From: Candidatus Omnitrophota bacterium
GTDB taxonomy: Bacteria > Omnitrophota > Gorgyraeia > Gygaellales > Profunditerraquicolaceae
Assembly (NCBI GenBank): GCA_026387265.1
Contig: JAPLLZ010000031.1
Span: 1 to 47,075 of the forward strand
DNA: 47,075 bases
Direction of reading: 5' to 3'
The translations under genes were made by a program, and so were the position numbers. Below, in pieces: positions 3,092 through 46,179 of the stretch (its first letter is position 1; the number at the start of each line of letters is the position of its first letter). The notes beneath the pieces are model-generated. The model was not told the origin of the DNA. It did no database searches and saw only the letters and a program-made list of their open reading frames with translations.

Positions 3092-3200
3092 TCCTGCGGT
3101 AAGGAGTAATTTACTCTGAGTCCAAGGGGGATGAAAATTTCAGAATCCCAACCTTTCTGCAGGAAAAGTTTTTTAAGCAGAGAGGCTGGGATTTTTATTT
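3092..3200 (+). promoter_or_regulatory. Structured leader or attenuator: P1 TCCTGC/GCAGGA, inner GAGTA/TACTC and GGGAT/ATCCC stems, overlapping a terminator-like hairpin (3144-3193)
   Basis: TCCTGC 3092-3097 complements GCAGGA 3159-3164; AATCCCAACCTTTCTGC 3144-3160 pairs with GCAGAGAGGCTGGGATT 3177-3193 followed by TTTTATTT; the two folds share bases. Confidence 0.5.
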
Positions 3201-3208
3201 AAAGGAGG

Positions 3209-3331
3209 TTCCGCCTCAGATGCTAGTCAAAATTCTCTAGAATTTTGACTATTCGGCGGAATAAATTCGCAGACGGCCTAACGGCCTACGACTTACGTCG
3301 CTGGCGCTTCCGTAAGTCGTCTGCTCATTTA
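3209..3331 (+). repeat. Nested TC/TC-hairpin intergenic element, copy A
   Basis: TTCCGCC-TC-...-TC-GGCGGAA enclosing the 13-bp palindrome TAGTCAAAATTCT/AGAATTTTGACTA, then TAAAT-TC-GCAGACG...CGTCTGC-TC-ATTTA. Confidence 0.85.
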
Positions 3332-9688: not shown

Positions 9689-9698
9689 GGAAAATATA

Positions 9699-9760
9699 TC
9701 CCGCCTCAAATTATTCGGCGGGATAAATTCGTCCGCCACAAATCATGGCGGACTCATTTA
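9699..9760 (+). repeat. TC/TC-hairpin intergenic element, copy B (no inner palindrome)
   Basis: TCCCGCC-TC-AAATTAT-TC-GGCGGGA then TAAAT-TC-GTCCGCCA caaatca TGGCGGAC-TC-ATTTA; SD AAAGGAG follows. Confidence 0.88.
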
Positions 9761-23424: not shown

Positions 23425-23484
23425 AAATCCTCCTTCTTTAGATTAATTTTGGAGGAAATCGAGGATTGCTTTAGCTAAAAACTA

Positions 23485-23530
23485 GGGGACGGTTCTCTCA
23501 AGCCAAAAATACAAAAAGAGAACCGTCCCC
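23485..23530. repeat. Inverted repeat GGGGACGGTTCTC ... GAGAACCGTCCCC between convergent genes
   Basis: 13-bp perfect arms, flanked by T-rich sequence. Confidence 0.85.
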
Positions 23531-23531
23531 T

Positions 23532-24776
23532 TTATTTTTGAAGGAATTCTAAGATGAGCTTAGCTGCGCGTTCTGCTGCTCCAGGCTCTCCCAGTGTATC
23601 TTTTACTATTTTTAGATCCTGAATCATTTTTTGGGCAGAGAGAGAGTTTTGTAAAAGTTCAATAATAGATTTAGCAATAATTTTGGGCCGGGCGTCGAAT
23701 TGGATAAATTCCGGAACTATCTTTTTTCCTGCCACAATGTTGACTATTCCGATATAAGGAACCTTTATTTGTGGTCGATAAAGTAAATAATTGAATAAGT
23801 TAGTTTTATATACAATTACAAAAGGTTTTTGTATAATTGCTGTTTCTAAAGTAGCGGTTCCCGAACAAACTATCCCGGCTTGGGCGATGTTTAAGCAATC
23901 GTAAGCCTGGTTATCAATAATTTTTAAATCCAAGGCAAATTTTTTACATTCTGCCAAATATATTTGAGCGTCTAGGTTGGGTGTTTTAGCGATAATAAAC
24001 TGTGTTTCAGGGATTATTTTATTGATGAGTTGAGCAGCTTTAAGCATTATGGGCAGGATTAATTTGATTTCCTGTTTACGCGATCCGGGAAGCAGGGCGA
24101 TAATTTTTTTAGCTGGATCTATTTTCAAGCGGTTTAAGAAAATCGGTTTATCCGTAGATGGGTGTACTAGGTCTATTAAGGGATGGCCGACAAAAGTTGC
24201 CTTGATTTGATACTTATGGTAGAATTTTTCTTCAAATTTAAAAAGTACAAAGATTGTTGAGATAAATTTTTTAATGCAATTGATTCGGCCTTCTCGGGAA
24301 GCCCAGATTTGCGGGCTGACATAGTAAATAACCGGGATACGTTTATTGACCGCTTTAGCTAAACGCAGGTTAAAGCCTGAAAAATCAACTAAAATCAGGC
24401 AATCAGGTTTATCTGTATCGATCTTTTCCAAGACCATTTTTTTTAACTTCAGGAAGCGGGGTAGTTTTTTTAAAACATCAAAGAATCCCATTACAGAAAG
24501 TTCGCTGATATTGTAAAAGATGCTGGCTCCGGTTTTAGCCAGGCGTAAGCCTCCAACTGCGGAAAATTCAATCTGGGGTTGTAATTTCTGGATTGCCGAT
24601 ACTAGATCGCCCGCCAAGAGATCTCCGGAGGGCTCCCCGCAAATAATGAAAACTTTCCTTATGCTCCGCGGCTCAAAGTCGTGCTTATCGGAAAGCGGAT
24701 AGGTGATGGCCGCTTGAGTATTTCGCTCACCGGAATTATTGAGGCAATGTGTTGTGGATTGGTTTATTTGTGCCAT
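23532..24776 (-). CDS. lpxB: Lipid-A-disaccharide synthase
   Basis: FIICGEPSGDLLAGDLVSAI, YVSPQIWASREGRI, LLPGSRKQEI, VCSGTATLE; true start may be internal. Confidence 0.92.
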   Translation of the reverse strand: MAQINQSTTHCLNNSGERNTQAAITYPLSDKHDFEPRSIRKVFIICGEPSGDLLAGDLVSAIQKLQPQIEFSAVGGLRLAKTGASIFYNISELSVMGFFDVLKKLPRFLKLKKMVLEKIDTDKPDCLILVDFSGFNLRLAKAVNKRIPVIYYVSPQIWASREGRINCIKKFISTIFVLFKFEEKFYHKYQIKATFVGHPLIDLVHPSTDKPIFLNRLKIDPAKKIIALLPGSRKQEIKLILPIMLKAAQLINKIIPETQFIIAKTPNLDAQIYLAECKKFALDLKIIDNQAYDCLNIAQAGIVCSGTATLETAIIQKPFVIVYKTNLFNYLLYRPQIKVPYIGIVNIVAGKKIVPEFIQFDARPKIIAKSIIELLQNSLSAQKMIQDLKIVKDTLGEPGAAERAAKLILEFLQK

Positions 24777-26481: not shown

Positions 26482-26509
26482 GTAGAGACGCAAAATTTTG
26501 CGTCTCTAC
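26482..26509. repeat. 28-bp perfect palindrome GTAGAGACGCAAAATTTTGCGTCTCTAC, copy 1
   Basis: Exact match to the copy at 38247-38274. Confidence 0.95.
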
Positions 26510-26549
26510 TAATAAAGTCCTAAAATCATTAAAAAAGCAATAAAAAGGT

Positions 26550-31398: not shown

Positions 31399-31454
31399 AT
31401 TTTGTTGGGAATGTCCCCGCAGCTTCTCTATATTTGAAGCTAAGCGCGGGGATT

Positions 31455-31507
31455 AATTCGCACATTGACTTACTCGCACTGGCGTGCTCGTAAGTCAAGT
31501 GCTCATT
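31455..31507 (+). repeat. TC/TC-hairpin intergenic element, copy C, immediately 5' of tRNA-Lys
   Basis: AAT-TC-GCAC a TTGACTTAC-TC-GCAC tggc GTGC-TC-GTAAGTCAA GTGC-TC-ATT. Confidence 0.85.
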
Positions 31508-31514
31508 ACATTTT

Positions 31515-31842: not shown

Positions 31843-32033
31843 CACCCAGCGCTAAGCGGAATTGCGTTGGTGCGCAATAGGTATCTTGCAGCACCCGACG
31901 CAGATTCGGTCACCCAACGCTTATTGGAATTGCGTTGGTGTTCGCCAGGTGGCGAAATTGCGCAAGTGCCGTGTTCGTTAGGCAACGCAGCACCCCGCGC
32001 TGATTGGTATTGCGCGGGTGCGCGACAGGTGTC

Positions 32034-33980: not shown

Positions 33981-34081
33981 GGGATTTGAAGCTTAGGGCT
34001 TTGCGCTACGCGCAAGGATTTCGCTAGATTTTTATTAGTGCTCAAATTTCGATAAAATTAATAGTAAGGTGTTTGCTAACT

Positions 34082-38246: not shown

Positions 38247-38274
38247 GTAGAGACGCAAAATTTTGCGTCTCTAC
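38247..38274. repeat. 28-bp perfect palindrome GTAGAGACGCAAAATTTTGCGTCTCTAC, copy 2
   Basis: Exact match to 26482-26509. Confidence 0.95.
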
Positions 38275-38313
38275 AAAATAATAAATTCAGCCGTCATTAT
38301 TAAAGGAGATAAC

Positions 38314-39570: not shown

Positions 39571-39578
39571 TTTAATGA

Positions 39579-39719
39579 AAAACTCTAAATTCGAAACCCG
39601 AAACTCTAAACAAACTTGAAACTCTAAACTCGAAACTAAAGCATTGTTTTTAGAGTTTTGGGTTTAGGATTTGTTTAGGATTTGTTTAGGATTTGGAGTT
39701 TAGAATTTCGAGTTTAGCG
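39579..39719. repeat. Long imperfect inverted repeat built from AAACTCTAAAYnCGAAA-like units, copy 1
   Basis: Left arm units of CTAAAC/CGAAA, right arm reverse-complementary, including tandem GTTTAGGATTT. Confidence 0.85.
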
Positions 39720-40706: not shown

Positions 40707-40711
40707 GAAGT

Positions 40712-40853
40712 TTCCGCCTCAAATACTAGTTAAAATTCTCTAGAATTTTAACTATTCGGCGGAATAATCCTTGCTCGTTTCACTCGCAAGGATTTCGTTA
40801 AACAAAAGCATGAGGTGCTCAAATTCGCCCGCTACGATCATGGTGGGCTCATT
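40712..40853 (+). repeat. Nested TC/TC-hairpin intergenic element, copy D
   Basis: TTCCGCC-TC-..TAGTTAAAATTCT/AGAATTTTAACTA..-TC-GGCGGAA; AATCCTTGC-TC-GTTTCAC-TC-GCAAGGATT; AAT-TC-GCCCGCTA cgatca TGGTGGGC-TC-ATT. Confidence 0.88.
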
Positions 40854-46020: not shown

Positions 46021-46027
46021 AATAATG

Positions 46028-46154
46028 TTAAACTCTAAATACGAAATCCTAAACTCTAAACAAACTCAAAACTCTAAACTCGAAACCAAAGCGTCATTTT
46101 TAGAGTTTCGGATTTAGAATTTGTTTAGAATTTCGGGTTTAGGATTTAGCGTTT
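46028..46154. repeat. Long imperfect inverted repeat built from AAACTCTAAAYnCGAAA-like units, copy 2
   Basis: Same unit vocabulary and same central AAAGCRTYRTTTTTAGAGTTT as 39579-39719. Confidence 0.85.
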
Positions 46155-46179
46155 AACCAATCAATAACGGAGGATAAAG

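Follow-up and report, generated by a model that had tools for sequence, protein, structure and literature searches.

GTAG-tagged REPs, BIMEs and REPINs with RAYT are dispersed intergenic hairpins with interrupted stems, often arranged as inverted pairs, which are patchy between species and thought to move as single strands (PMC2817692, PMC3116915, PMC3733652, PMC8266576). CGTC-tagged REPs, for which no dedicated transposase is known, are palindromes found in several phyla, mostly as head-to-head dimers, with an 8-9 bp stem, an unpaired CGTC tag and a CCA tail (PMC3733652). The end hairpins of IS200/IS605 and related Y1 repeats are read as single-stranded DNA, in which unpaired bases serve as recognition marks (PMC6006769).

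The window analysed here, a stretch of 47,075 nucleotides, comes from a Candidatus Omnitrophota assembly of 1.56 Mb in 73 contigs, placed in that phylum by the named close relatives of its phosphofructokinase gene, and holds hairpins that we think probably belong to an Omnitrophota-wide family of small non-autonomous DNA elements of mobile type, with a build like that of REPs and BIMEs (REPINs). Rfam contains no family that matches the hairpin element above the curated threshold. Within the subset of the open-access literature searched, no paper links Omnitrophota to REP or similar repeats, none links tandem G-A mismatches to extragenic palindromes and no description of this phylum-scale repeat family was found; a 2025 survey of REPs makes no mention of Omnitrophota.

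Hairpin modules in the window and its genome

The first-pass annotation of the window had reported intergenic hairpins with a TC/TC internal loop at 3209-3331, 9699-9760, 31455-31507 and 40712-40853, and the helices and loops it described are present at all four loci. These hairpins are real, but they are modules of a larger mosaic rather than the whole element. Scanning the window for 2x2 TC/TC loops with eight or more closing Watson-Crick pairs gave 10 matches, two of which fall inside a tRNA-Gly gene; 30 dinucleotide shuffles gave 0.63 on average and never more than 2.

All modules described below lie on the forward strand. Module A, TTCCGCC-TC-(AT-rich hairpin)-TC-GGCGGAA, is found at 3209..3261 and again at 40712..40764, both copies being read directly and recovered by the loop scan, the second also by repeat comparison; the first matches the copy at 40709-40767 with 92% identity, although the two sites are unrelated and their flanks differ. 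A minimal form, TATCCCGCC-TC-AAATTAT-TC-GGCGGGATA, lies at 9697..9725 (read directly; loop scan). Module B, the AAATTCG..CTCATTT hairpin, is one arm of a three-hairpin unit. At 3262..3331 this arm comprises a GGCC side hairpin and an ACTTACG core (35 bits, E 2.7e-5, with the covariance model R1, the E-values of which come from a short calibration), and its end adjoins the Shine-Dalgarno sequence AAAGGAGG of the following gene. A short module B, TAAAT-TC-GTCCGCCA..TGGCGGAC-TC-ATTTA, at 9724..9760 (R1 28.6 bits) has AAGGAG directly 3' of it, and another module B, at 31454..31508 (R1 68 bits, E 2.4e-14), has a second TC/TC loop at 31474-31490 and a tRNA-Lys gene downstream.

At the fourth locus module A is accompanied by module C, AATCCTTGC-TC-GTttcAC-TC-GCAAGGATT (40766..40794; read directly, loop scan), by module D, ATTTCG...GTGCTCAAAT (40792..40824; read directly), which overlaps the ends of C and B, and by a short module B, AAT-TC-GCCCGC..GTGGGC-TC-ATT (40822..40853; read directly), with AAAAGGAG of an fba-like gene directly 3'. 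The order D plus B, as at 40792..40853, recurs beside other elements. A degenerate relative had been suspected at about 33997-34052; it is indeed present, and consists of a C-type followed by a D-type hairpin (ATTTCG...CTCAAAT) without a B arm (33999..34047; read directly). The window elements are shortened mosaics of the form A+B, A+C+D+B or B alone.

Searches of the host genome covered about 1.5 Mb (about 96% of it). In 135 kb of its intergenic DNA, crudely defined from gene calls that are crude ORFs, the TC/TC and GA/GA classes gave 44 matches and the median 2x2 loop type gave one; the other strongly enriched class in this DNA, CT/GA, gave 47 and derives at least largely from an unrelated low-complexity AAACTCTAAACAAACTCG repeat. 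Genome-wide, module B reads AAATTCG...GCTCATTT, usually around a conserved ACTTACG...CGTAAGT core, module A reads CCGCCTCA...TTCGGCGG, module C ATCCTTGC-TC..TC-GCAAGGAT and module D ATTTCG...CTCAAAT, with B commonly last in the array and adjoining the downstream gene. R1 gave 34 matches at E<=1 in this genome, or about 30 copies.

Several other repeats were seen in the window. Inverted repeats of the AAACTCTAAACAAACTCGAAA type, dispersed in the genome, lie at 39573-39716 and 46023-46157, and were the source of the CT/GA class in the matches inspected. Three CACCC..GCGCT..AATTGCG..GGGTG hairpin repeats stand between tRNA-Leu and tRNA-Gly genes at 31843-32020, and similar hairpins occur at pfk-fba junctions of other Omnitrophota (L171 and L174, for example). 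A perfect palindrome, GTAGAGACGCAAAATTTTGCGTCTCTAC, occurs twice in the window, at 26482-26512 and 38247-38277, and L202 has it in its pfk-fba spacer. Finally, a leader-like stretch at 3118-3200, TCCTGCGGTAAGGA..CCAAGGG..CAACCTTTCTGCAGGA and then a terminator-like hairpin, recurs before the same regulator gene in most congeners examined; it had no Rfam match at the gathering score and is a candidate riboswitch or leader RNA.

The three-hairpin unit and its TC/TC step

The larger structure to which module B belongs was seen in G027, a copy-rich relative, where 60 of the 69 listed matches lie close together in twos. Every one of these 30 pairs runs minus/plus, the inverted-pair arrangement of BIMEs and REPINs, with the arms 40-95 nt apart in 29 pairs and 304 nt apart in one, so that each strand of a pair has its GA arm at the 5' end and its TC arm at the 3' end. 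The centre between the paired arms also folds into a hairpin (often CCCTTGACA...TGTCAAGGG in G027), and the complete element is therefore a three-hairpin unit, B' - central hairpin - B, composed of a GA-strand arm, the centre and a TC-strand arm. Each arm is a long hairpin of about 60-100 nt with a tandem mismatch near its foot, which reads 5'-TGAG../..CGAA-3' on one strand and 5'-TTCG../..CTCA-3' on the other; in copies from many genomes the ends of the unit read T-N-AAT-GAG / CTC-ATT-N-A. The unit is about 145-260 bp long in most copies; the 27 complete units inspected have extremes of 105 and 356 bp, and no consistent direct repeat of the kind left by target-site duplication was found around them.

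An autonomous form, in which the two arms would enclose a gene, was also considered and rejected, two widely spaced arm pairs having proved to hold ordinary genes, skp/ompH-like in one (G027:C108) and rho- and coaE-like in the other (G043:C220), all named by eye. The wide pair in G027:C108 is in fact two complete units, one on each side of the skp/ompH-like gene.

Pairing is maintained as the arm sequences diverge. Eleven arms that lack side hairpins, aligned with MAFFT, yielded a structure of 20 pairs, 14 of which had changed on both sides; such two-sided change was found in all 20 pairs among 79 distinct copies from many genomes, and in 19 of 20 in a second set of 58 copies from other genomes, the two sets having a few copies in common. 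Covariation scores were 0.56 (79 copies) and 0.54 (58 copies), compared with 0.16 for shuffled and at most 0.09 for slid alignments; these two alignments were fitted to R1, which favours the structure, but both the sliding controls and the initial MAFFT alignment point the same way.

The first-pass annotation had named three outcomes that would tell against a family: copies confined to those already seen, TC/TC positions no more conserved than the helices, and no significant covariation. Instead, the covariance model it had proposed returned many copies with strong covariation, and the loop persists while the helices vary, as had been claimed, with TC on both sides of the basal loop in 71 of 79 and 49 of 58 copies. 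Among the pairs that close this loop, 126/126 and 124/127 paired cells read Y-TC-R on the TC strand, whereas stem pairs 1, 6 and 7 flip freely. Its complement on the GA strand is 5'-Y-GA-R-3', a context known to yield sheared tandem G·A pairs in both DNA and RNA. The orientation of the closing pairs is that expected for sheared G·A, and the earlier suggestion of a sheared tandem GA/GA step would fit it.

In a survey made up of Omnitrophota genomes, at least 257 of 386 (about two thirds) had one or more matches at E<=1e-4, phylum-wide counts that are lower bounds because the filters were strict and 13 candidates per genome were scored. Like REPs, these are intergenic palindromes dispersed in many copies. 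Their number per relative ranges from 0 to 66 and is patchy inside a single genus, whole congeners being without any. In a control of 703 kb of viral DNA picked for a similar motif, 80 pattern loci yielded zero R1 matches; plasmid records gave no match to one G027 unit, and phage records none to a window copy.

If the family is of mobile type, a strand might become single during replication or transfer, allowing the arm to fold, and the tandem G·A step in the folded arm could then serve as a structural mark for some enzyme that carries the unit, or a copy of it, into gene junctions. The A/C/D + B mosaics of the window would be left by loss of modules and recombination. A more far-reaching reading, which we regard as a serious contender though a rather doubtful one, is that these are a separate Omnitrophota superfamily of single-stranded DNA mobile elements, marked by the tandem sheared G·A step, moved by an activity outside the Y1/HUH, IS110, reverse transcriptase, TnpB and integron families, and adapted at their ends to operon junctions, with stop codons on one side and a Shine-Dalgarno sequence or start codon on the other.

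Gene junctions and the paired molecule

The outward CTCATT end adjoins a Shine-Dalgarno sequence at an offset of 0-2 in 32 of 126 distinct copies and lies within 30 nt of one in 6 more; other CTCATT ends stand directly before a start codon. On the opposite side of B a Shine-Dalgarno sequence occurs within 30 nt in only 2 of the 126. Of 23 ends that face the 3' end of a gene, 21 take in its stop codon, either in the terminal stem or in the TGAG step. Part of this overlap is automatic, since the end sequence TNAATGAG itself includes stop codons; it shows reading frames extending as far as the edge of the element. In G027 two consecutive junctions of an apparent bamA-skp-lpxD operon (L395 650-1565, G027:C108; names by eye) consist wholly of one unit each, and the lpxD-like gene there may start on a GTG directly after the element, without a Shine-Dalgarno sequence. 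This exact siting of the ends at stop codons and Shine-Dalgarno sites counts against the mobile-type reading to the extent that the elements may have a role at gene junctions.

Comparison of orthologous loci with and without the element, as the earlier annotation had advised, revealed empty and filled sites at both the pfk-fba and the hydA-regulator junctions. Most of about 65 Omnitrophota pfk-fba junctions are short spacers without the element; arrays are present in the window and in L210, L211, L213 and L223, and other or decayed hairpins in L169, L176 and L177. The array at the hydA-regulator junction is common to only one congener (G007, L239), with the B arm broken. These are differences between species, each represented in the set by one genome, and no recent transposition event was seen among them; together with the patchy copy number they are more readily explained by a mobile repeat that spreads and decays than by a conserved regulator.

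A cis-acting RNA, folded in the mRNA as a leader hairpin directly 5' of the ribosome-binding site or as an operon-junction signal, would account for the one-sided proximity of CTCATT ends to Shine-Dalgarno sequences (32/126 at offset 0-2 against 2/126 within 30 nt), for the single B arms of the host genome, which mostly face a downstream start, and for the strong covariation, but we judge it unlikely. Most orthologous junctions and whole congeners are without the element, the genes downstream of copies are unrelated, copies also lie beside genes in other orientations, and the unit is an inverted pair, so both arms are present on each strand. Of the features of a structured cis-regulatory RNA, stem covariation was found, but conservation upstream of orthologous genes and G·U tolerance on the transcribed strand were not; strong covariation upstream of genes is by itself no proof of a riboswitch or leader RNA.

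Selection for a folded RNA would be expected to leave G·U better tolerated than A·C. Counting the 18 main pairs over two copy sets (about 2400 cells) gave 2327 Watson-Crick cells (1339+988), 26 G·T (14+12) and 27 A·C (16+11), unlike 43 tRNAs of the same genome, in which there were 47 G·U, 0 A·C and 900 Watson-Crick pairs. Relative to Watson-Crick pairs, G·U is 4.7-fold rarer in the stems than in the tRNAs (odds ratio 4.7, p 1.8e-10, the p value being a guide only, as cells are non-independent and the tRNA pairs are those accepted by a tRNA finder). That G·U is as rare as A·C is evidence against a functional RNA and points instead to the DNA, in which the pairing of the stems looks to have been selected, or generated. 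The first-pass annotation had inferred selection on a folded strand, RNA or single-stranded DNA; the covariation and the kept loop bear out the folded strand, whereas the rarity of G·U speaks against RNA as the selected molecule.

Carrier enzymes and known systems

The same architecture of interrupted-stem hairpins in inverted pairs between genes would be expected of a true REP/REPIN family with an unusual foot sequence, mobilized by Omnitrophota Y1 (RAYT) transposases, and Y1 genes are common in the group (50 of 58 relatives). Several observations nonetheless make such an origin improbable. Y1 count and element copies are uncorrelated (Spearman -0.06, p 0.66), G037 having 18 copies and no Y1 and G006 six Y1 and no copies; 31 Y1 loci gave one weak element match, about 1 kb away, the Y1 genes not being flanked by the element; and the ends have no GTAG or GTGG tetranucleotide 5' to the hairpin foot. 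The Y1/REP-type transposase that had been proposed as a partner neither correlates with the copies nor adjoins them, and was rejected as the carrier on both counts. Y1 loci are enriched for a different, GGGGAC repeat; GGGGAC motifs are about 4x denser around Y1 genes than in the genome and may be Y1's own REP. The window has a AGGGGACGGTTCTCT..AGAGAACCGTCCCCT repeat at 23477-23538.

Four further carriers were rejected, none of them being present in the host genome: IS110 and TnpB (zinc ribbon), each in few genomes of the set, reverse transcriptase, which is rare in the set, and integron integrase, in one of 58 relatives (G047:C16:3307-4263, well above cut-off at 414 bits). Integron attC sites are folded single-strand sites that lie between genes and have an unpaired step near the foot. 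Folded imperfect hairpins exactly between genes would suit attC-like recombination sites of an integron-type tyrosine recombinase, but the scarcity of the integrase contradicts this for the families tested, and the elements occupy conserved operon junctions, not cassette arrays, leaving it very improbable. Hardly credible either are neutral palindromes from template switching or arm-to-arm correction, or ordinary terminators: arm-to-arm correction would fit stems so nearly perfect and almost free of intermediates, yet it should also erase the TC/TC mismatch, one of the best-conserved features; specific ends and a specific orientation recur across the phylum, and no T tract follows the hairpins examined.

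The reading as a family of small mobile-type elements makes an enzyme common to copy-rich genomes a clear target for naming a new mobilizing activity, and the family offers many natural variants for finding a reader of the tandem G·A step in single-stranded DNA. Among known systems, MITEs are likewise short inverted-repeat units without genes, but here the arms differ in sequence, each is its own hairpin, and the target-site duplication of a MITE of a DDE transposase was not found. In contrast to IS200/IS605, the arms neither enclose nor adjoin a Y1 gene, and they show no evident CnGA foot of the kind described for such repeats (PMC6006769). Palindromic repeats that lack a dedicated transposase have a precedent in the CGTC class (PMC3733652), but the Omnitrophota element does not fit the definition of that class, its stem being long and interrupted by an internal TC/TC loop and the CGTC tag being absent. 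With RAYT REPs it shares dispersed interrupted-stem hairpins, inverted pairs and a patchy distribution across species. Because it fails the GTAG and RAYT tests it is not a REP in the strict sense, although its architecture is REP-like; it differs in the absence of any RAYT association, in its fixed TC/TC (GA/GA) step, its third, central hairpin and its arms of about 60-100 nt, and in ends that adjoin start codons and Shine-Dalgarno sequences besides stop codons.
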